A DNA stretch of 64,000 nt from Natrarchaeobius chitinivorans (GTDB lineage Archaea > Halobacteriota > Halobacteria > Halobacteriales > Natrialbaceae). Shown one piece after another: positions 3,366-57,453 of this stretch. The position numbers and the translations under genes were made by a program. The first letter of the stretch is position 1; every line of letters begins with the position of its first letter. The stretch is from contig NZ_REGA01000005.1 of NCBI RefSeq assembly GCF_003841505.1, forward strand, positions 62,001-126,000, read 5' to 3'. The notes under the pieces were generated by a model. It ran no database searches, was not told the origin of the DNA, and worked only from the letters and a program-made list of their open reading frames with translations.

Positions 3366-3888
3366 AGTGAGTGAGTTCGTCGGTTCGTGGACTAACTACG
3401 GGTCTCGCGCTTCTCGTACTGCCGGACAGCAGTCAGTGCGACGTCGATCGCGAATTCGCGGCCGTCGCCATCGGAGACGCACGCAGGAGGGCGACCGATC
3501 GACACATCGTTCTGTCCGACAGTATCAGAATTCGAGCCCGGAGTGACGGCGGACGTCGGCGTTCGTGTCCCGGGAGATCGGGACGCCCTTCCGGACCGGC
3601 TCTTCGGGTCGGAGTTCGTCGGCTTCACGGCAATTCTCGACTCCGTTCGGCGTAGCGCACGTGAGGGTTGCATTTCGAGAACAGTTTCTCACTCCACGGG
3701 TTCACTATACGGTTGTTAAACCGTTCCAGCGGTGAGACTGACTGGGGTCTCGGCTGGGAACGGGTCGTGTTCGCACCGTCCGTCGGGATGGCACGGATCG
3801 CTGGCGAACGTGGCTGCGGGATCGACGCGTCCGTCCCTGGTACGTTTAACTGCCGTATAGTATCGAACGGGGAGCTCTCAGTGAACGT
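3366..3888. other. Intergenic with one repeat element
   Basis: Divergent spacer between two oppositely oriented genes. It contains repeat copy A (3417-3524). A TATA-like CGTTTAAC lies at about 3842-3849, roughly 45 bp before the downstream ATG, so that gene probably has a short leader. I see no gene in the rest. Confidence 0.55.
3417..3524 (-). repeat. 108-bp MITE-like element, copy A
   Basis: One of three equal-length (108 bp) copies. Termini are imperfect inverted repeats: TACTGYCGGACAG at one end and CTGTCCGGCAGTA at the other. The interior is strongly conserved, including GCCGCGAATTCGCG and GTCGCACTGACTGCTG. This copy is inverted relative to copies at 5737 and 8018. It shares with the 8018 copy the flank CGAGAAGC just outside one end. 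It carries no transposase, so it would have to be mobilised in trans if it moves. Confidence 0.85.
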
Positions 3889-5736
3889 ATGGCAGATTAC
3901 GCGCTCGCGTTCAAACCGGCGATCGGGCTCTACGGACAACACGACCCAAGCGCCGTTCTCTTCGAAGACGGAGTCCCCGTGTTCGGGATCGAGGAGGAAC
4001 GACTGACGCGGCAGAAACACGCGCCGGAGACGTTCCCGATGAACGCCATCGTCGCCTGTCTCGAGCACCGGGACCTCGAACTCGCGGACGTCGATCGCAT
4101 CCTCCTCCCGTACGACCCGCGGCTCCGATCGCGGATCCGCTCGCACTACGTCCGCGATGCGTTGCGAGCCGAGGGGCTTGCGAGAAAGATCACTGCCCTC
4201 GAGCGAACCGCAATCGACGCAGTCAGGAGCCGCCTGCGGCCCACCGGCATAGTCGAGAGCCGTCTCGCGGAGATCGGGACCCCGGTCCCGCCGATCGAAC
4301 TGCTCTCACACCACCGGTGTCACGCCGCGAGCGCGTTTCACCCCTCGGGTTTCGAGGACGCGCTCGTCCTGACGATCGACGCGAAAGGCGAGTTCGACTC
4401 GACGGTCGTCTGGAGCGGACACGAAGGCGGACTGACGCGGGTCCACACCGACGAACACCCGAACAGCCTCGGGTTGTTCTACGCGATCGTCACCGAGTAT
4501 CTCGGCTACCGGATGTTCAACGGCGAGGGGAAGGTGATGGGACTCGCGGCGTACGGCGAGTACAACAGCGATATCGACCGAACGTTGCGCGATCTCGTCG
4601 ACGTCGGGGCGGAGTACGACGTGACGGACCTGACCAGGCGGTGGGGGACGGGCCACGGGGTCGAACGACTGGAAGAAGCGTTCGGGCGGCCGCGAACCGA
4701 CGAACCCGGCTCGTTCGACCAGTGGGAGAAGGATCTTGCGTACACGACCCAGAAGATCCTCGAGGAGATCGTCCTCGACGTCGTCCGGGCGTACGCTTCG
4801 CGGGTCGATTCGACGAACGTCGCGCTTGCGGGCGGCGTCGCCCTCAACTGCAAACTCAACAAGCGAATCCGTGAACTCTCGATCGTCGACGAGACTTTCG
4901 TCCAGCCGGTCGCACACGACGCTGGACTCGCACTCGGTGCGGGCTGGGCGCTCCAGCGGCCGGCCGACGTCGACCCGCTATCGACGGTCTACTTCGGCCC
5001 CGAGTACGAGTCCGACGAGATCGAGGCGGAACTCGAGACGAACAAGATCGACTTCGCGCGGCCGGAGAACGTCGAACGGTACGTCGCACAACGTCTGGCC
5101 GAGGGGGCGCTGGTCGGCTGGTTCCAGGGGCGATCGGAACTCGGACCGCGAGCGCTCGGTGCCCGAAGCATCCTCGCGGATCCACGCTCGGCCGAGTGGC
5201 GCGACCGCGTCAACCGGTTCGTCAAACACCGCGAGCAGTGGCGTCCGTTCGCACCGTCGATCCTGGAAGACGCCGCAGCGGAGTTCCTGATAGACGCCGA
5301 ACCCGCGCCGTTCATGATCGATACGTTCGACGTGCGACCGGAACGCGCCGACGAACTCTCGGCCGTCGTTCATCCAGCTGACGGCACGACGCGGCCACAG
5401 ACCGTACGTGAGGATCAACACCCGCGATACTACCGCTTGCTGTCGGCGTTCGAGGAGATAACCGGCGTGCCGGTCCTGCTCAACACCTCGTTCAACGATC
5501 GCGGAGAACCGATCGTCAACACCCCGTCGGAGGCGGTGAAAGACTTCTACGGGATGGGACTCGACGTTCTCGTCCTCGAAGAGTACGTCCTCGAGAAGAA
5601 CACGGCTCGTCTCCCGCCCGTCGAAGAGGGGAGTAACGGCCGTGAACCGCTGTCGAATCTGGATCCTCTCGCCGATCGAACCGACGGCGACCGGTCGGAA
5701 TCGTCCTCGAGTACGCGAACGGTCCTCGACTCCTGA
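3889..5736 (+). CDS. Carbamoyltransferase, NodU/CmcH family
   Basis: Predicted O-carbamoyltransferase that moves a carbamoyl group from carbamoyl phosphate, through carbamoyl-adenylate, to a hydroxyl of a sugar or secondary metabolite. The N-terminal Kae1/TsaD-like ATPase fold is visible: HDPSAVLFEDG near 21, EEERLTRQKHAPETFP near 40, the His-rich LSHHRCHAASAFHP near 140, and LAGGVALNCKLNKR near 312. The C-terminal carbamoyltransferase lobe has GWFQGRSELGPRALGARSI near 410 and VPVLLNTSFNDRGEPIVNTP near 525. The 615-residue length is normal. Near glmS and polysaccharide-type genes, so a surface glycan is a reasonable acceptor (inference). The TGA stop coincides with the first bases of repeat copy B, so the serine-rich C-terminal tail may be a by-product of that insertion. 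Confidence 0.9.
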   Translation: MADYALAFKPAIGLYGQHDPSAVLFEDGVPVFGIEEERLTRQKHAPETFPMNAIVACLEHRDLELADVDRILLPYDPRLRSRIRSHYVRDALRAEGLARKITALERTAIDAVRSRLRPTGIVESRLAEIGTPVPPIELLSHHRCHAASAFHPSGFEDALVLTIDAKGEFDSTVVWSGHEGGLTRVHTDEHPNSLGLFYAIVTEYLGYRMFNGEGKVMGLAAYGEYNSDIDRTLRDLVDVGAEYDVTDLTRRWGTGHGVERLEEAFGRPRTDEPGSFDQWEKDLAYTTQKILEEIVLDVVRAYASRVDSTNVALAGGVALNCKLNKRIRELSIVDETFVQPVAHDAGLALGAGWALQRPADVDPLSTVYFGPEYESDEIEAELETNKIDFARPENVERYVAQRLAEGALVGWFQGRSELGPRALGARSILADPRSAEWRDRVNRFVKHREQWRPFAPSILEDAAAEFLIDAEPAPFMIDTFDVRPERADELSAVVHPADGTTRPQTVREDQHPRYYRLLSAFEEITGVPVLLNTSFNDRGEPIVNTPSEAVKDFYGMGLDVLVLEEYVLEKNTARLPPVEEGSNGREPLSNLDPLADRTDGDRSESSSSTRTVLDS

Positions 5737-5844
5737 TACTGCCGGACAGAACGATGCGTCGATCGGTCGCCCTCCTGCGGTCGTCCCCGGTGGCGACGGC
5801 CGCGAATTCGCGACCGACGTCGCACTGACTGCTGTCCGATAGCA
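5734..5844 (+). repeat. 108-bp MITE-like element, copy B, overlapping a stop codon
   Basis: The core 5737-5844 matches copies A and C along its whole length. All three copies are preceded by TGA, giving TGATAC at the boundary, and here that TGA is the stop codon of the carbamoyltransferase. The far end is more diverged (CTGTCCGATAGCA) than in A and C. Confidence 0.85.
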
Positions 5845-5959
5845 CGACAGTCGGGACCCGTCGGATCGGCAGTGTTGATCGCGACCGTCGATCGTCGCGC
5901 ACCGTTTCCTACCCTGATATCGTCGGGGCTTTCACGCGAAACGCAAAAGTAGGAACTCG

Positions 5960-7852
5960 TCACCCGGTGATTTCGACCGTCCAGTTGCCGTCCGCGTGGA
6001 CAGTTATCCAGGCGGCCCCACCCGCGCTGTACGACCGGTTGCTGTCGAACGGGCCGCTCTGATTGATGAGCTGCTCTCGGTGTCCGTCAGCACCGATTCC
6101 GTCGACGACGAACTGCCCCTCGCCGTCGTGTGTCGCTTCCAGGGTGACGTCGCCTTCGGTCAGAAACGGGCCGACGAACGAGGATCCGGACCCCGATGCG
6201 TCGACCGGCAGGGTCGCGAGGTCGTCCGCGTGAACCGCCGGCTGATCGACGACGACCGTCCACTCCCCGTCGGCCTCGACGACGAGTCGGTAGGTGCCTC
6301 CCACGACGGGGACGATCGATTCGCTCGATCCCGTATCCGAACCCGCCGCCGGAAGCATCCGCCGGTCGCTGTCGTCGACCGCCACCAGTTCCACGCCGAG
6401 TACCGGATCTCCATCCCCGGCGACCTCGAACGTGGCGATCCCCTCGAGGAGGTCGAACGTCGACGATTCGGCCGATCCCCTCCCGTCGATCGTGTGGTGG
6501 CGGCCACCGTCGAGAATCGTCCCCTGGAGTTGCTGGGTGGGCTCGCCGGTGGTGCCGTCGCCGCCCATCGTCCCGTCGATCACGTCGGACGGCGTGACTA
6601 CATCGAGGCCCCGGTGTTCGAGGTGATCCAGCAGGTGTTCGAAGTCCGAAAGCGACATGCTGTTCGCGTCGCCGTCCGCGTCGTCCGCGACGACTTTCGG
6701 GATGCGAAGCGCCACGAGTTGATCGTACTGGTCACAGAGGTTGATCGCCCGGCGCACCCCACCGTGGAGGTCGGGCCCCCAGATCAGCGGCGACAGGTGG
6801 ATCCCGGTCGGCGGCACACCGGTCGGGGAGGCACCGAACAGGAACGCCGACTCGTAGAGGTCCCGGACGACGGTCTGGGTGGCCTGGTCCATCCGATCGT
6901 CCGGGACGAAGCAGTGACGCGAACCGGCGTCGAAGCCGAGTTCCGCGAGATCGTCTCTTTTCCTCTCGAGGATCTGTCGGCGACGATCGTCCGGCATCTG
7001 GGTGAGCGGCTGATCGCCGGTCGGGTACGAACAGACGTCCCAGCCGCGATCACGAAGGCGACGCAATTCGTCGGCGTTCATCCGTCCGCTCCCGCCGATC
7101 CTGTCCGGGTCGACTGCCGCTGTGGCCGCCCAGCCACGCTCCTCGAGTCGGTCCGCCGCGAGGTCGTAGTGGGATCTGAACCCCCCGTACAACGCGAGAA
7201 TCGCCTTCCCGTTGTCGGCCGCTTCGGTTCGTCTGAGATCGTCTGCCGCGAACCGGGTCGGGCCGTTTTCGGGTCCGACCGCGACGACGTTCAGCCGGCG
7301 GACGTCGGTGAGGTCCGGATCGCCGTGTTTCTGGATGTATCCGAAGTCGAGACGCAGCCAGCCCTCGTACTCGTCGGGAACGTCACGAATGCTGGTGAGG
7401 TGGTCGCCGCGTTCGGGTGCCATGAACTCGAGGTGGATCCGATCGACCGACTTCGCCTCGATCGCCATCGAGACGTCCCAGCCCTCGAGGTCGAGGCCAC
7501 GAGGAAAGTCGATCCGCATCGCAGCCCTGTCTTCGTCGCCGTCGACGGCGATCGCCTGCGTGCCGGTCGGCACCTCGTCGGTGACGGTTTCGATATCGCC
7601 GACCACCGCCTGCCACTCGTTTGCCGACTCGAAATCAGAGACGACCTCGCCGGCTTCGATCGCCGGCCAGGAATCGTCGGAAACGGGGTCACTCGAGCGT
7701 TCACCGGTTTCGACAGCTTCGCCGTCGGTCGAATCGACGCCGGGGCCACTTTCGTTCGCCCGACCAGTCGACCGAGGGTCGAGACAGCCTGCGAGCGCCG
7801 TCGTGACGCCGAGTGTGGCCACCATTCGTCGCCGCGAGAGGGGTTGATCCAT
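5960..7852 (-). CDS. Tat lipoprotein with sugar-binding-like and diverged polysaccharide-deacetylase domains
   Basis: Exported lipoprotein, 630 residues. The chosen start (7852) places a Tat signal, SRRRMVATLGVTTALAGC, at the N terminus; AGC is the lipobox. A jelly-roll carbohydrate-binding-like domain lies at about 65-200, a NodB/polysaccharide-deacetylase fold at about 205-410, and a C-terminal region with two Trp-containing beta repeats. The deacetylase part has lost its metal ligands: the family's TFDDG is ALYGG here, the usual SHP motif is SYP, and the catalytic-arm APFGR-like segment is VPDDR. It may therefore bind sugar without cleaving it. The upstream 29 residues in frame are dropped because they precede the signal. 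Next to a secreted lyase-like gene on the same strand. Confidence 0.8.
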   Translation of the reverse strand: MDQPLSRRRMVATLGVTTALAGCLDPRSTGRANESGPGVDSTDGEAVETGERSSDPVSDDSWPAIEAGEVVSDFESANEWQAVVGDIETVTDEVPTGTQAIAVDGDEDRAAMRIDFPRGLDLEGWDVSMAIEAKSVDRIHLEFMAPERGDHLTSIRDVPDEYEGWLRLDFGYIQKHGDPDLTDVRRLNVVAVGPENGPTRFAADDLRRTEAADNGKAILALYGGFRSHYDLAADRLEERGWAATAAVDPDRIGGSGRMNADELRRLRDRGWDVCSYPTGDQPLTQMPDDRRRQILERKRDDLAELGFDAGSRHCFVPDDRMDQATQTVVRDLYESAFLFGASPTGVPPTGIHLSPLIWGPDLHGGVRRAINLCDQYDQLVALRIPKVVADDADGDANSMSLSDFEHLLDHLEHRGLDVVTPSDVIDGTMGGDGTTGEPTQQLQGTILDGGRHHTIDGRGSAESSTFDLLEGIATFEVAGDGDPVLGVELVAVDDSDRRMLPAAGSDTGSSESIVPVVGGTYRLVVEADGEWTVVVDQPAVHADDLATLPVDASGSGSSFVGPFLTEGDVTLEATHDGEGQFVVDGIGADGHREQLINQSGPFDSNRSYSAGGAAWITVHADGNWTVEITG

Positions 7853-8235
7853 GTCGGTGTGACCTCTGGTTCCTGTGGACTTGCTAATGAGGTGGGTAAA
7901 CCGTTGGCACCAGCAGAAAACGCCGATCAGACTCGTCAAAACGGCACTGCCAGCCCTCAGATGGAAATATCAGCCACCAGCTGTAACTGATAGGCACCGT
8001 ATCGGATGCCGTTGTGATACCGTCGGACAGAACGATTCGACGATCGGTCGCCCTCCCGCGGGCGTCTCCGATGGCGACGGCCGCGAATTCGCGATCGACG
8101 TCGCACTGACTGCTGTCCGGCAGTACGAGAAGCAGGTGGCGACGGCACTACCGATGGAAACGGTCGACGCGTCGGTTCAGCGAGCTCGAGGAGTGACCCC
8201 CTGATCACGCGTGTCGGCGTGGTGGGCCGACGCTG
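7853..8235. other. Intergenic with repeat copy C
   Basis: Spacer between two minus-strand secreted-protein genes. Apart from the 108-bp element at 8018-8125 I see no gene; small open frames run through the repeat in the same frame as in copies A and B but have no start support. Confidence 0.55.
8018..8125 (+). repeat. 108-bp MITE-like element, copy C
   Basis: The closest match to copy A (reverse complement), differing at only a handful of positions in the first half. It is flanked by TGA on the left and CGAGAAGC on the right, the latter also seen beside copy A. It lies about 110 bp 3' of the lyase-like gene. Confidence 0.85.
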
Positions 8236-9252
8236 TCAACAGCCGTCCCCGAACGTGCCGTTTACCGCCATCGAGTGACGGTCGTAATAGGCATAGAGGT
8301 TCCGAGGTGAGACGTACCGGCCGCCGTAGTAGCCGGCGGGGCCGGTGGTGTCGATGACGTTGTCCTCGAGGTCGGCGGTAAACCGCAGGTCACGGCGGTC
8401 GTAGATTCGGTCGCCGTCGAGCCAGTACTGAAGGATGCCGTCGTCGTTTGCTCGGCCGCTCGTGACCGTGTTCACGCAAACGTAGTACTCGAACTCGTAC
8501 CACCGTCCCGGAACGATTTCGGCCTCCTGTACGGTGTACTCCTGCCCGTCGAGGAGATAGTCGTGGTCCTGGTACTGGTCCATGTGGTACGTATGCGAGA
8601 GGAGAGCGAACGGTCCGTCCGGTTCGCCACCTCTCGTCGTAACGTACAGCCGATTGCTCCAGCCGTTCGTTCCGTCCGGTTCGCCACCTCTCGTCGTAAC
8701 GTACAGCCGATTGCTCCAGCCGTTCGTTCCGTCTGGGACGCCGCCGCCCGCACTCCCCTCTCCCAGCGCCATCGCACAGTTCCAGAGTCGACAGTTCGAC
8801 GGATCACGACCGGGCATCTCCCAGCCGGTATCGAGCGCGAACTGAACCCGGCCGTTGAGTTCTATCACGTCCTCGCCGAGATCGTAGTGCGTGCTCACAC
8901 CCCAGCTCTGGTCTTCGCGCATTCGAATCTGGAGGGCGCTGTCCCCAGAGTACGTCGGACTCGAGACGAGCGAGATATTCTCGGGGTCGCCGTTCGATCG
9001 CCAGTAGACGTCGTCCCAGTCGTCGTACGCGTCGTAATCGAGGTGGATCTCGTCGTCCGGTCTGTTACACCCTCCTCCAGCTTCGTTCGCGCTTCCGACG
9101 CCAACTCCGGCCGAGCCGAACAACCCGGCGACACCTGCGACTCCACCGAGACGGAGCGTCCGACGGCGACTCAGGCCGTCGTCCGTCGTCCGTTCGCCAC
9201 CGGTTCTCGTGCGGTCATCTCCAGTCGTCCGATCGGTATGCTTGTCCGTCAT
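8236..9252 (-). CDS. Secreted Tat protein, putative polysaccharide lyase (concanavalin-like fold)
   Basis: The start at 9252 gives a Tat signal: GLSRRRTLRLGGVAGVAG within the first 50 residues. The mature part (about 270 residues) is rich in Trp, Tyr and Asn with blocks such as WGVSTHYDLGEDVIELNGRV, YHMDQYQDHDY and PGRWYEFEYYVCVNT. These resemble haloarchaeal proteins annotated as polysaccharide (glucuronan-type) lyases with a jelly-roll fold; I cannot confirm the active site. A 57-bp unit is tandemly duplicated in frame (8615-8728), repeating 19 residues around TNGWSNRLYVTTRGGEPDG. That would lengthen one loop or strand, and may change or destroy activity. Confidence 0.7.
   Translation of the reverse strand: MTDKHTDRTTGDDRTRTGGERTTDDGLSRRRTLRLGGVAGVAGLFGSAGVGVGSANEAGGGCNRPDDEIHLDYDAYDDWDDVYWRSNGDPENISLVSSPTYSGDSALQIRMREDQSWGVSTHYDLGEDVIELNGRVQFALDTGWEMPGRDPSNCRLWNCAMALGEGSAGGGVPDGTNGWSNRLYVTTRGGEPDGTNGWSNRLYVTTRGGEPDGPFALLSHTYHMDQYQDHDYLLDGQEYTVQEAEIVPGRWYEFEYYVCVNTVTSGRANDDGILQYWLDGDRIYDRRDLRFTADLEDNVIDTTGPAGYYGGRYVSPRNLYAYYDRHSMAVNGTFGDGC
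8615..8728 (-). repeat. Perfect 57-bp in-frame tandem duplication
   Basis: Two identical 57-bp units, the second starting at 8672; the bases after it (CCGTC at 8729) begin a third partial match. There is no sequence divergence between the two, so the event is very recent or maintained by gene conversion or slippage. Confidence 0.95.
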
Positions 9253-9612
9253 GCGATTTCGGCTCCTCCACCGTCGTACAATAGTATTCGATCGCTGGGC
9301 GAAAGTAACGGGCGAATTCGCTCGAGAGCCGTTCAGCTGCCGAATTCGGCCATCCAGTAGCGTGCTCCTTTCGAATCGTTCGGGATCGACAACAGTTGCA
9401 GCGTCTACAACCGTTCGGTCTCTGGACTCCCGATCGGTTTCCCGTCGTCTCGATAGGACGGGCATCGCGGTGATCGTTGACACACGCCTCATACGGATTA
9501 CTGTAACTGGTTACCGGCGCACCCGCGACCCGGGCGGCGGGTGCGCCGGCAAGGACTTACAGTAAACCGTATCAGAGCCTCGAAAGCGAATCTACCGGTG
9601 ATCTCACAGCGA
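9253..9612. other. Intergenic with hairpin element E1
   Basis: Upstream region of the lyase-like gene and 3' region of the next gene. It holds the 82-bp hairpin at 9491-9572; nothing else is recognised. Confidence 0.5.
9491..9572 (-). repeat. Hairpin repeat element E1
   Basis: An 82-bp near-palindrome. The left arm begins ATACGGATTACTGTAACTGG and the right arm, read in reverse, begins ATACGGTTTACTGTAAGTCC. The inner stem is GC-rich (CCGGCGCACCCGC paired with GCGGGTGCGCCGG). It lies 41 bp after the stop of the upstream minus-strand gene, with the CTGATACGG end facing that gene. Same architecture as the element at 15069-15148. Confidence 0.75.
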
Positions 9613-53537: not shown

Positions 53538-55544
53538 TCAAGTGAGTTTCCGGACGGTTTCTGCGATGTCTTCGTCGTCCGGAACGACTTCCTGTTCGAG
53601 CGGCGGACTAAACGGCGTTGGGACGTCGTCGATACCGATGCGCTGGACAGGGAAATCGAGATCGAAAAACGCCTCTTCGGAGATTCTCGACGACAGTTCG
53701 GACTGCATCCCGAAACTGAGCGGTGTATCGTCGACGACGACACATCGTCCGGTCTTTCTAGCGCTGGCCGCTATCGTCTCGACGTCGAGTGGGTCGATCG
53801 TTCTGGGATTTACGACTTCTACGCTGATTCCTTCGCTCTCGAGTCGTTTTGCCGCCTCGAGGGCGTTCCAGAGTTGTACCTGTGTGGCGACGACCGTGAC
53901 GTCTTCGCCCTCACGCTCGACCGCAGCCTCGCCGATGGGAAGGACGTACTCATCGGTCGGAACGGGACCAGAGCGGTTGTAAACTCCCGAGTGCTCGAAT
54001 ACCATTACCGGGTCATCACTCCGAACGGCCGCTTTGAGCAGTCCTTTCGTATCGGCCGGCGTCGAGGCGCAAACCACTTTGATACCGGGAATTGCCGCGA
54101 TCCAATTGTGCAGGGCCTGTGAGTGTTGTGCGGCGGCTTCGTATCCCATCGTGTTCTGGGTCCGAATTGTAAGCGGAATATCCAGTTTCCCGCCGAACAT
54201 GTACCGCATCTTCGCGACCTGGTTGAGCAGCTGATCACCGGCAACGCCCAAAAACCCGGAGTACATTACTTCCACTACGGGTCTCATCCCTGTTGCGGCT
54301 GCACCGAGACCACTTCCAACGATTGCGACTTCGCTGATAGGAGTGTTTCGGACGCGGTCTTCTCCGAACCGTTCGGCGAGACCTTCGAGGGTGTTGAACG
54401 TCCCGCCGCGACCGGCGACATCGATTCCCTGGAGGAACACGCGGTCGTTTTGTTCCATCTCCTCGCCGAGCGTTTGACTGATCACCTCGCGGACGGTTAG
54501 CTCTTCAGTGTCTCCGCTTTGCGGAACCGAACTCTCGTTGGCGTTCACGTTGTCGCTGTAGAGACCGTTGTAGGCCGCTTCCGGTGCCGGCTGATCGCTC
54601 TGGCGTGCAAAGTCGACCGCGTCCTGGATCTCTGCTTCGATCTCGCGTTCTATCTCCTCGTACTCAGACTCCGTGAGCACGCTTCGGTCGATGAGTTCCT
54701 GCGGATACGTTCGAATCGGATCCTTCTGTCGCCATTCGTTCAGTTCGTCTTCATCGCGGTAGAACTCCGAGTCACCCTCGTGGTGTCCTTCGAACCGATA
54801 CGCAATACACTCAATGAGGGACGGCCCCTTGCCGGCTCTGGCTCGCTCGACGGCCTCGGACGCCGCGCTATAGACGGCTTCGACGTCCATCCCATCTACC
54901 TGTACGCGGTTCACGCCGTATGGTTCACCGTAAACGGTTAAATCGTCGACTGATTCTGCCGGATGGTGGTCCTCGATGCCGGTCATCTCCCCGTATTGGT
55001 TGTTCTCGATGATCCCGACGAGCGGAAGGTTCCAGAGTCCAGCGAGGTTGAACGCTTCGTGAAATGCCCCTTGGGAGAGCGCCCCATCGCCGAAATACGA
55101 GACTGCAACCTCGTTACTATCACGCATTTTAGAAGACAACGCCGCTCCGGTGGCAATTGGAATGCCGCCGGCGACGATTCCATTCGCGCCGAGCATCCCG
55201 GCGTCGACGTCGGCGATGTGCATCGATCCGCCTTTGCCGTTGCAGTATCCAGTCTCCTTTCCGTACAGTTCGGCAGCCATTCGGTCCGTCTCGAGACCCC
55301 GTGCAATACAATGTCCGTGGCCCCGGTGGGTACTTGTGATGTAATCGTTCTCGGTGAGCGCCTGTTCGACCCCCACCGCGATCGCTTCTTCACCGATGTA
55401 CAGGTGGAGGAACCCGGGAACTTCGCCGTCGGCGAATCGGACCTGCATCTCGGATTCGAACTCCCTAATCCGTCGCATCGTACGCAGCAACTCGATCCGA
55501 TCCTGATCGTCGAGGTCGGACTGTTGCTCCTCTTGGGAACTCAT
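53538..55544 (-). CDS. Fused E1 alpha-beta thiamine-diphosphate dehydrogenase (acetoin/2-oxoacid type)
   Basis: 668 residues with the two normally separate E1 chains in one polypeptide. Alpha part (1 to about 325): RGHGHCIARG (about 74), NGKGGSMHI (about 102), and the thiamine-diphosphate motif GDGALSQGAFHEAFNLAGLW ending IIENNQY (152-184). A 25-residue linker precedes the beta part (about 348-668): TVREVISQTLGEEM, FGEDRVRNTPISEVAIVGSG and VVEVMYSGFLGVAGDQLLNQ. It decarboxylates a 2-oxoacid, or cleaves an alpha-ketol as acetoin dehydrogenase does, onto the lipoyl group of E2. E2 is the next gene upstream; no E3 gene is in the window. A good TATA box supports the start. Confidence 0.93.
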   Translation of the reverse strand: MSSQEEQQSDLDDQDRIELLRTMRRIREFESEMQVRFADGEVPGFLHLYIGEEAIAVGVEQALTENDYITSTHRGHGHCIARGLETDRMAAELYGKETGYCNGKGGSMHIADVDAGMLGANGIVAGGIPIATGAALSSKMRDSNEVAVSYFGDGALSQGAFHEAFNLAGLWNLPLVGIIENNQYGEMTGIEDHHPAESVDDLTVYGEPYGVNRVQVDGMDVEAVYSAASEAVERARAGKGPSLIECIAYRFEGHHEGDSEFYRDEDELNEWRQKDPIRTYPQELIDRSVLTESEYEEIEREIEAEIQDAVDFARQSDQPAPEAAYNGLYSDNVNANESSVPQSGDTEELTVREVISQTLGEEMEQNDRVFLQGIDVAGRGGTFNTLEGLAERFGEDRVRNTPISEVAIVGSGLGAAATGMRPVVEVMYSGFLGVAGDQLLNQVAKMRYMFGGKLDIPLTIRTQNTMGYEAAAQHSQALHNWIAAIPGIKVVCASTPADTKGLLKAAVRSDDPVMVFEHSGVYNRSGPVPTDEYVLPIGEAAVEREGEDVTVVATQVQLWNALEAAKRLESEGISVEVVNPRTIDPLDVETIAASARKTGRCVVVDDTPLSFGMQSELSSRISEEAFFDLDFPVQRIGIDDVPTPFSPPLEQEVVPDDEDIAETVRKLT

Positions 55545-55570
55545 AGCAACCGTATCTTCCGACTCATCGT

Positions 55571-55580
55571 ATATAAATGC
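55571..55580 (-). promoter_or_regulatory. TATA box for E1 gene
   Basis: Minus-strand GCATTTATAT centred about 30 bp before the ATG at 55544. Confidence 0.65.
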
Positions 55581-55770
55581 GAGGGCAAACGGAATTGTCG
55601 CTCCGTACTGCATCGGATCGTTCTTCGAACCGGCATTCTTCCGTTTACCTCGACCGGTTAGGACAAATCACAGCGATTGATCGGCAACTTATACGGTTTA
55701 CTGCACCGATTAACCGATGCGACCACCGGACGGTCGCGGCTGTACCGCCAACGACGTACAGCAGGCCGGA

Positions 55771-57453
55771 TCAACTCATCCGTCCCCACTCGAGCGAAAA
55801 CGAGACGTCGTCGGAGAGGGAGCGCTTGACGTAACAGGCCCGCTCGGACTTGGTAACCGCCTTCTCGATCGTCGTATCGTCAACGTCTGTCTCGAGTCGC
55901 AGGTCGATGTCAACCGCTTCCAGCGGACCGTTCTCTGGTTGACCGGTTACGTTGCAAGCGATACCTCCCATTTCGATACCGTCGTTTTCGGCCACCTGAC
56001 GAAGTGTCAACGAGACGCACGAACCGAGCGCGCCGAGGAGGTGATCGACCGGCGATGGTGCAGTTCCCGTTCCACCGACCGATTCCGGTTCATCGAACGT
56101 CGTTGACCCGTACACGGTGTGGTATCGGCCTGCAAACTCTCTTTGGTTTTCGACTTGAATCTCTCGATCTGAGAGATCAGCGTTTATCTCGTTGGTTTCC
56201 GGGATTTCGGCTGGTCCGGGCTGGACCGTGACGCCCTCAGAAAAGAACTCGAGGAGGCATGCAGTGTCCGTCATCATGTCGACGAGACTGTCGAGGAATC
56301 GAGCGGCGTCGGCCCCGTTGACCACTCGGTGATCGAACGACAGGCTTAGTGACATCGTTCCGTCGGCCCGAATCCGGCCAACGCCAAGGATAGCGATTTC
56401 CGGCGGGTTGATGATCGGATCGAAGTTGTCGACGCCGAGCGGTCCCAGGTTCGAAATCGTGAACGTTCCGTTCGTGAGGTCGTCCGTCGTGAAATCCCCG
56501 GACTGAATCCGTTCGGTCCGCTCTGAGCGAGCCGTGCTGACGGCCTCGATGCTTTTTTCGGTGACTGTCGGAACGACCGGCGTGACGAGGCCATCTTCGA
56601 CGTCAACCGCCACACCGACGTTCACTTCGTCGATGAGTTTGTGCTCGCCGTCTTCGTAAACTGCGTTGAACTCGGGATGGGATTTCAGACACTTTCCAAC
56701 CGATTTGATCAGGAGATCTGTCAGCGAAATGTCCACTCCTCGACTCTTCGCTGCTTCTCTGACGTTTTGGAGGACCTCGGTGTCGAACGAACGGTTCAGT
56801 GTGACGTGGACGGCATTCCGATAACTCTCACCGAGCCGTCGTCCGACCGTCTCTTGCATACCCGACGTCTCCGCGACCTCGCGAACTGTCCTCGTCGCCG
56901 CGGCGTCGTCCTCGGTGGCTTCCAGGTGATCGTCAACGTCGTCTTCAGTTACGACGCCGCCCGGTCCGGTGCCGGAAACGGTCGTAAGGTTCACGCTCCG
57001 CTCTTCGGCGAGCCGTCTGGCACCCGGCGTCGCGCGAACGTCCGTGGAGTGTTGGTTTGCTTTCTCCCCACTCTGGTTTCCACCCTCCGAACTTGCCTCG
57101 TCCGGCGATCCCGAAGCGGATACCTCGGCCTCCGATCCGGTCGTCCCCCCGTTCTCGATCACAGCTTCGCTCAGGGGTTGTCCGAGTTCGTCTTCGAACG
57201 TCGAGAGATCCTCGTCCGGGTCTGCCAGAATACCCATCGCGGTTCCCGGCGAAACCGTCGTTCCTTCTGGGGTGAGAATTTTTCGAAGCGATCCTGCCTC
57301 TCGAGTTTCCACTTCCCTTGTCGTCTTCTCGGATTCAACGAGGGCGATCACTTCGCCTTCGTCTATCGAAGTACCTTCGTCGATTTCCCAGCTCAGAACT
57401 TCACCTTTGTCCATTGACATCCCTAGCTGAGGCATGCGGATGAGATATCCCAT
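55771..57453 (-). CDS. Dihydrolipoamide acyltransferase (E2) fused to OsmC peroxidase domain
   Basis: 560 residues with domains in order. Lipoyl domain 1-80 with the lipoyl-accepting Lys43 in LVESEKTTREVE. Acidic linker, then an E1/E3-binding peripheral domain about 137-176 (ATPGARRLAEERSVNL). Acyltransferase domain about 195-405 with His375 in SFDHRVVNGADAARF; the usual Asp of HRxxDG is Asn here. Then about 425-560 an OsmC/Ohr domain with both redox cysteines, Cys479 in LLGALGSCVSLTLR and Cys540 in SERACYVKRSLS, 61 residues apart as in OsmC. Ohr/OsmC peroxidases are known to be reduced by lipoylated proteins, so the fusion puts the reductant and peroxidase on one chain. No frameshift at the junction. 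Separately promoted upstream of E1. Confidence 0.93.
   Translation of the reverse strand: MGYLIRMPQLGMSMDKGEVLSWEIDEGTSIDEGEVIALVESEKTTREVETREAGSLRKILTPEGTTVSPGTAMGILADPDEDLSTFEDELGQPLSEAVIENGGTTGSEAEVSASGSPDEASSEGGNQSGEKANQHSTDVRATPGARRLAEERSVNLTTVSGTGPGGVVTEDDVDDHLEATEDDAAATRTVREVAETSGMQETVGRRLGESYRNAVHVTLNRSFDTEVLQNVREAAKSRGVDISLTDLLIKSVGKCLKSHPEFNAVYEDGEHKLIDEVNVGVAVDVEDGLVTPVVPTVTEKSIEAVSTARSERTERIQSGDFTTDDLTNGTFTISNLGPLGVDNFDPIINPPEIAILGVGRIRADGTMSLSLSFDHRVVNGADAARFLDSLVDMMTDTACLLEFFSEGVTVQPGPAEIPETNEINADLSDREIQVENQREFAGRYHTVYGSTTFDEPESVGGTGTAPSPVDHLLGALGSCVSLTLRQVAENDGIEMGGIACNVTGQPENGPLEAVDIDLRLETDVDDTTIEKAVTKSERACYVKRSLSDDVSFSLEWGRMS

Follow-up and report, generated by a model that had tools for sequence, protein, structure and literature searches.

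The E2-OsmC fusion gene and its domains

The window analyzed here, a 64,000-nucleotide stretch of the Natrarchaeobius chitinivorans genome (contig NZ_REGA01000005.1, positions 62,001 to 126,000), carries a gene in which an E2 acyltransferase of the 2-oxoacid dehydrogenase type continues into an OsmC-like domain. An initial annotation of this DNA had proposed a single unbroken frame with lipoyl, peripheral-binding, acyltransferase, and OsmC domains and with Cys479 and Cys540, and both Pfam and codon reading confirmed it. All four Pfam matches of the 560-amino-acid (aa) protein exceeded their curated cut-offs, and the codons of Lys43, His375, Asn379, Cys479, and Cys540 were verified by direct reading of the window DNA. 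The gene comprises the following features.

55771 to 57453, minus strand: E2-OsmC fusion gene, 560 aa; the frame runs from 57453 to 55771 with 0 internal stops
57232 to 57441, minus strand: lipoyl domain, residues 5 to 74, motif VESEKTT (Pfam PF00364 Biotin_lipoyl, E 1.5e-13)
57325 to 57327, minus strand: Lys43, predicted lipoyl attachment site in the ESEK motif (codon read on the DNA)
56935 to 57039, minus strand: peripheral subunit (E3/E1) binding domain, residues 139 to 173 (Pfam PF02817 E3_binding, E 2e-13)
56260 to 56877, minus strand: acyltransferase catalytic domain, residues 193 to 398 (Pfam PF00198 2-oxoacid_dh, E 4e-56)
56317 to 56331, minus strand: HRVVN, with catalytic His375 and with Asn379 replacing the usual Asp (codons read on the DNA)
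55774 to 56184, minus strand: OsmC-like domain, residues 424 to 560 (Pfam PF02566 at 461 to 554, E 4.9e-17; structural model; Foldseek)
56017 to 56019, minus strand: Cys479, at the peroxidatic Cys position of Ohr (profile alignment and codon read)
55834 to 55836, minus strand: Cys540, at the resolving Cys position of Ohr (profile alignment and codon read)

The OsmC part was modeled by AlphaFold with a mean predicted local distance difference test score of 95.2, and Foldseek matched the model to OsmC-family structures with E values down to 1e-9, confirming the fold. The full-chain model combines confident domains with low-confidence linkers, and contacts between domains are thus not readable from it. 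In the linker region (residues 136 to 190), the window copy has one peripheral-binding domain, and many relatives have two in tandem. The upstream sequence contains a stretch resembling a tRNA; 0 tRNAs were detected there, and the motif frequency is at chance level.

The acyltransferase motif reads HRVVNG and not HxxxDG, a point that the initial annotation had overlooked. Among the 44 fusions described below, the change from Asp to Asn is confined to the window's genus. Titles in a series of solved Azotobacter E2 structures name catalytic roles of Ser558, His610, and Asn614, which suggests, by analogy, that Asn379 in place of Asp need not be inactivating.

Recurrence and conservation of the fusion

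We searched 394 sampled Halobacteria genomes with an OsmC profile and counted as a fusion any listed match in an open frame of at least 490 aa. Among the matches listed, 50 genomes held the fusion, 33 of them in the window's family and 17 elsewhere; the named relatives of the host genome are Natrinema, Natronococcus, Halobiforma, Natronorubrum, and Haloterrigena. Profile scores fell into two populations, with E2-linked domains at approximately 87 to 217 bits and free OsmC types at or below approximately 84. Outside the class Halobacteria, the E2-linked type was found in 0 of approximately 240 other genomes of the phylum, bacteria not having been searched systematically because the only scan of wider genome contigs used a Natrialbaceae-specific pattern. 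A candidate bacterial fusion on a Rhizobium plasmid (match over residues 5 to 506) was rejected as a spurious extension, the E2 ending there and being followed by an acyl-CoA dehydrogenase.

The host genome itself carries a second full-length fusion (contig C7), 44% identical to the window protein and approximately 5 kb from genes for E1-alpha and E1-beta; its MarR-like neighbor, considered as a candidate OhrR-type regulator, has weak Pfam matches and no relatives at other loci. This second copy, together with the recurrence in other genomes, ruled out a one-off fusion. Sequencing error, chance, and an artefactual or frameshift origin are likewise excluded because the same architecture occurs in dozens of genomes under purifying selection.

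From these genomes, 44 fusions were extracted, each with the E2 core and OsmC confirmed in one frame. The lipoyl Lys is present in 43 of them, and the acyltransferase His and both OsmC Cys residues are present in all 44. Alignment of 37 full-length sequences shows Cys conserved without exception at two columns and no others, those of residues 479 and 540; across 47 E2-linked OsmC domains, just four columns are invariant, namely two Pro and the same two Cys. The ratio of nonsynonymous to synonymous substitution rates (dN/dS) of the OsmC domain was approximately 0.06 to 0.3 in ten fused pairs (Nei-Gojobori).

Literature searches, chiefly of freely accessible papers, found no description of an E2-OsmC protein, in agreement with the initial annotation, which knew of no described enzyme of this architecture. 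As far as these searches reach, the architecture is undescribed, and it is built from two known domain families. In the public records examined, related haloarchaeal E2s bear only names such as "2-oxo acid dehydrogenase subunit E2," under which an extra OsmC domain could escape notice.

Affiliation of the OsmC-like domain

By sequence and fold comparison, the domain of the window protein is a member of the OsmC-like branch and is neither an Ohr nor a classical OsmC. The highest template modeling (TM) scores in Foldseek were obtained with Ta0195 (2onf; 0.86), MPN625 (1lql; 0.82 to 0.84), YhfA (1ml8; 0.81), and PSYC_0566 (2pn2; 0.80), and most Ohr/OsmC structures scored lower, at approximately 0.62 to 0.77. 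The matches also include solved Ohr-dihydrolipoamide complexes (6ebg and 6ebd). The peroxidase models TIGR03561 and TIGR03562 gave no match to the window domain up to an E value of 0.1, and its relatives reached 16 to 23 bits against cut-offs of 86 to 89.

Genomic neighborhood and type of complex

The partner dehydrogenase/decarboxylase of the window E2 is encoded next to it.

53538 to 55613, minus strand: E1 with alpha and beta parts in one chain, 691 aa (Pfam E1_dh, Transket_pyr, and Transketolase_C)

Downstream of the fusion gene on the same strand, this E1 is accompanied by genes for an acyl-CoA ligase, a cyclase, and a thiolase; upstream lie two short-chain dehydrogenase/reductase (SDR) genes, a thioesterase gene, and an acyl-CoA dehydrogenase gene. 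The single 691-aa E1 chain of the window corresponds to two separate genes in relatives.

Most related fusions cluster with E1-alpha, E1-beta, and an AcoX-type NAD-kinase-like gene, which converge on the fusion gene, and this set of neighbors recurs across several families. The AcoX-like gene is found beside most related fusions and is missing from the window and from the loci of the same genus. In Paracoccus, the same AcoX-like family is found beside an E1, an E2 annotated as belonging to acetoin dehydrogenase, and 2,3-butanediol dehydrogenase; this shared operon context suggests, by analogy, a complex of the acyloin/diketone-cleaving type. For several 2-oxoacid dehydrogenase complexes of haloarchaea, no substrate has been identified, and pyruvate and 2-oxoglutarate have been excluded (PMC8305020).

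A glyoxalase-family gene often stands alongside related fusions, and the Natrialbaceae fusion loci adjoin both subunit genes of a 2-oxoacid:ferredoxin oxidoreductase (positions 3518 to 6357 of locus L069, and equivalents; L numbers denote the loci compared here). At another locus (L102, 2805 to 16571), nine SDR-family genes, mostly of approximately 273 aa and 60 to 82% mutually identical, flank the E2-OsmC and E1 genes. Plasmids of Haladaptatus halobius (L140, 5584 to 6948) and Halocatena marina (L141, 4378 to 5721) carry E1-AcoX clusters with E2 cores that lack HxxxDG, and these E2 chains adjoin an alpha/beta hydrolase gene.

Location of E3 genes

As the initial annotation had noted, no E3 gene accompanies the E1/E2 pair within the window. 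Pyr_redox_dim genes number four in this genome and lie on contigs C11, C7, and C18, with the window on C5. The genome encodes two or more E3-like proteins of full length, one of them in a pyruvate dehydrogenase-like operon, along with LipA and a lipoyl/octanoyl transferase-type protein. In both same-genus relatives that hold the fusion (L099 and L137), an E3 gene adjoins E1/E2; at L101, an E3 gene lies a few kilobases from the fusion. E3-like matches of 308 to 313 aa beside three further loci (L119, L121, and L122) were set aside as Thi4-type, judged by eye from length and sequence.

The same annotation had gone on to suggest that the OsmC domain might re-oxidize the lipoyl arm in place of E3 in the presence of peroxides; on this reading, E1-E2 would run without NAD. 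The lack of E3 in the window and beside most fused loci is consistent with this, but distant E3 genes are common where one shared E3 serves several complexes. Given the E3 genes in relatives and elsewhere in the genome, their absence from the window is no argument for E3-free operation, and the E3/E1-binding domain is retained and frequently duplicated. We therefore did not retain the suggestion and give replacement of E3 very little credence.

Fission and reduction of the fusion

A quickly built OsmC tree has a branch with the domains linked to E2 on one side and free haloarchaeal OsmC on the other, which is consistent with a single linkage event; judged from sequence, the OsmC-like domain probably joined the E2 C-terminus once. 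The same tree implies seven changes between fused and reduced forms, and in a slower tree, reduced forms lie within groups of fused ones in several positions. The E2-core tree intermixes chains with and without the fusion (four changes), and therefore the OsmC domain was also lost or gained in places.

Eleven loci (L071, L081, and L087 to L095) have undergone a far-reaching reduction in which E1, AcoX, the binding domain, and the E2 core are gone and OsmC keeps both Cys. In all 11 of their proteins, a degenerate lipoyl-like domain that has lost its Lys leads straight into an intact OsmC domain. These genes, at approximately position 8000 to 9400 of each locus, replace the full fusion and its E1/AcoX neighbors and arose several times. 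The complete locus L126 and the reduced locus L095 have common flanking genes, and therefore reduction happened in place. The dN/dS of the OsmC domain in reduced forms was 0.18 to 0.25 (three pairs). Retention of the domain with both Cys at these loci argues that it probably has an activity of its own, and the repeated loss of E1/E2 amounts to a natural experiment on its solo role. The reduced forms also retain their position beside the 2-oxoacid:ferredoxin oxidoreductase pair. A fusion with the E2 catalytic His, without the lipoyl Lys, and without E1 or AcoX nearby (L133, 8188 to 9567) may be an intermediate of reduction.

A different outcome is seen in the Haloterrigena salina group (L084, 3155 to 4660 and 7998 to 8402; L085; and L086), in which a stand-alone gene within the cluster encodes a 134-aa OsmC. 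The E2 of this group keeps the lipoyl Lys and has lost HxxxDG (the motif reads DARAIGG), with E1 and AcoX remaining; in L086, the E2 frame as called is broken between the lipoyl domain and the core.

These rearrangements bear on two further explanations. An accidental or decaying gene join without function would fit the repeated fission and reduction, as well as a locus (L135) where AcoX fragments alone were called without E1. Selection and conservation already largely refute it, however, with most pairs, reduced forms included, showing a dN/dS far under 1, with invariant Cys, and with a fusion spread over several families, and its probability is negligible. A structural role is also highly unlikely. 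OsmC/Ohr folds are domain-interlocked obligate dimers, and such a dimer at the E2 C-terminus, next to the inter-trimer contacts, could crosslink or alter the assembly of the E2 core; however, invariance is seen for the Cys residues rather than for the entire dimer interface, and the domain is maintained both where the E2 core is missing and where a free gene encodes it.

Proposed role of the OsmC-like domain

The reading that we favor, at a probability of approximately 0.47, is an E2 of an acetoin dehydrogenase-type 2-oxoacid/acyloin complex bearing an OsmC-like thiol-redox (peroxidase-like) module that is reduced by lipoyl arms. It builds on the observed domains, lipoyl Lys, acyltransferase His, OsmC Cys, partner E1, purifying selection, and recurrence. 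A redox role of the OsmC domain is probable from its conservation, and family knowledge makes a peroxide the most likely substrate and a lipoyl arm the most likely donor. In Corynebacterium, Ohr was reduced best by Lpd/SucB (PMC4486171), which bears out the premise of the initial annotation that reduction of Ohr/OsmC by lipoylated E2 is established. The OsmC-like protein MG427 reduces hydroperoxides (PMC9262362), which favors a peroxidase reading.

In the proposed mechanism, E1 would place an acyl group on the lipoyl arm, the E2 core would transfer it to coenzyme A, and an E3 from another part of the genome would normally re-oxidize the dihydrolipoyl arm. A thiol-redox side branch would be formed by the OsmC domain: Cys479 would be oxidized by the substrate, most likely an organic hydroperoxide, and would then form a disulfide with Cys540, to be reduced by dihydrolipoyl arms of the same complex or of other E2s. 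The fusions would be reduced in cis, and forms that have lost the lipoyl Lys would be reduced in trans. The module would thus protect or regulate the complex and not replace E3.

Several observations weigh against a lipoyl-coupled peroxidase. Profile alignment to solved structures places Cys479 and Cys540 at the peroxidatic and resolving positions of Ohr, but Val469, which is almost invariant and is followed by Asp470, takes the position of the Ohr Glu, and the position of Ohr Arg19 has no Arg aligned to it; Arg19 and Glu51 are the catalytic residues of Xylella Ohr (PMC5962072). No curated peroxidase model was reached at its cut-off by the fused OsmC domains. An esterase-OsmC fusion with both Cys had no detectable peroxidase activity in a dithiothreitol assay (PMC5113044), and the YhfA branch has been described as non-peroxidases (PMC4069020). 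Several related E2s lack the OsmC domain, and no peroxide-responsive regulator was identified near the fusion loci. Finally, OsmC persists after loss of the lipoyl Lys and E2 core and therefore does not depend on reduction by a lipoyl arm in cis. The "complete OsmC peroxidase domain" of the initial annotation accordingly gives way to an OsmC-like domain without the Glu and Arg of Ohr. Of its idea that electrons pass from the dihydrolipoyl arm to peroxide within one chain, the lipoylatable Lys and the two redox Cys stand, and the coupling in cis is weakened by the 11 reduced loci.

The same residues can be read differently. The domain may be redox-active without being a hydroperoxidase, its Cys pair serving as an oxidation-sensing switch that tunes the complex or acting on another substrate, such as disulfides or reactive carbonyls. 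Retention of both Cys while the Ohr Arg/Glu pair is missing favors this, as do the nearest curated model, "OsmC-related (seleno)protein," which scored below its cut-off, and the inactive two-Cys esterase-OsmC, whose OsmC part lowered esterase activity (PMC5113044). A switch on the complex would leave unexplained why OsmC is kept where E1 and the E2 core have been lost, and the activity of MG427 also speaks against it; we regard this alternative as somewhat unlikely. A bolder extension seems distinctly doubtful: the complex could be a peroxide-driven, NAD-independent oxidoreductase in which E1 oxidation, E2 acyl transfer, and OsmC hydroperoxide reduction are coupled via the lipoyl arm, the split-OsmC lineage, whose E2 lacks acyltransferase residues, being an extreme form that solely feeds electrons to OsmC.

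Lipoyl-dependent reduction of Ohr/OsmC has so far been shown with separate proteins, and a conserved fusion would mean that a metabolic E2 and a thiol-redox enzyme became physically joined in evolution. Judged from its domains, such a fusion could let a metabolic enzyme pass electrons to an oxidant, and E2-OsmC provides a defined construct for testing whether lipoyl arms donate electrons directly. The fusion is also relevant to the old puzzle of haloarchaeal 2-oxoacid dehydrogenase complexes without identified substrates (PMC8305020).

Comparison with known systems

The fusion shares its lipoyl, peripheral-binding, and acyltransferase domains and its E1 partner with the acetoin dehydrogenase complex (AcoA/AcoB/AcoC with AcoX) and with other 2-oxoacid dehydrogenase E2s, and an AcoX-like gene adjoins most of its relatives. 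Unlike the acetoin dehydrogenase genes, the window copy has no adjacent AcoX, and its E1 alpha and beta form one chain; none of the known E2 chains in the literature found is described with an OsmC domain. In Trichomonas hydrogenosomes, OsmC reportedly reduces peroxide via an incomplete glycine decarboxylase complex, according to the title of a study cited in PMC10332631; there, OsmC, the lipoylated H protein, and the L protein are separate, unlike in the fusion. The Ohr/OsmC peroxidases of Xylella, Corynebacterium, and Mycobacterium, which are reduced by lipoylated E2 and Lpd, have the fold and both Cys in common with the fused domain, and its link to E2 fits the known electron donor of Ohr (PMC4486171). 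However, these enzymes are separate proteins, and their catalytic Arg and Glu are absent from the fusion. The OsmC-like/YhfA branch provides the best structural matches and, in some alignments, shares a D-x-P...GG...P-x-[DE] signature; its members, in contrast, stand alone and are mostly without an assigned function, MG427 being a reported peroxidase (PMC9262362). The carboxylesterase-OsmC proteins of the EstO/EstRM family, represented by a 400-aa "osmotically inducible protein C" (PDB 9wo1), are fusions as well, but their partner domain is unrelated, they have no lipoyl arm, and peroxidase activity was not detected there.
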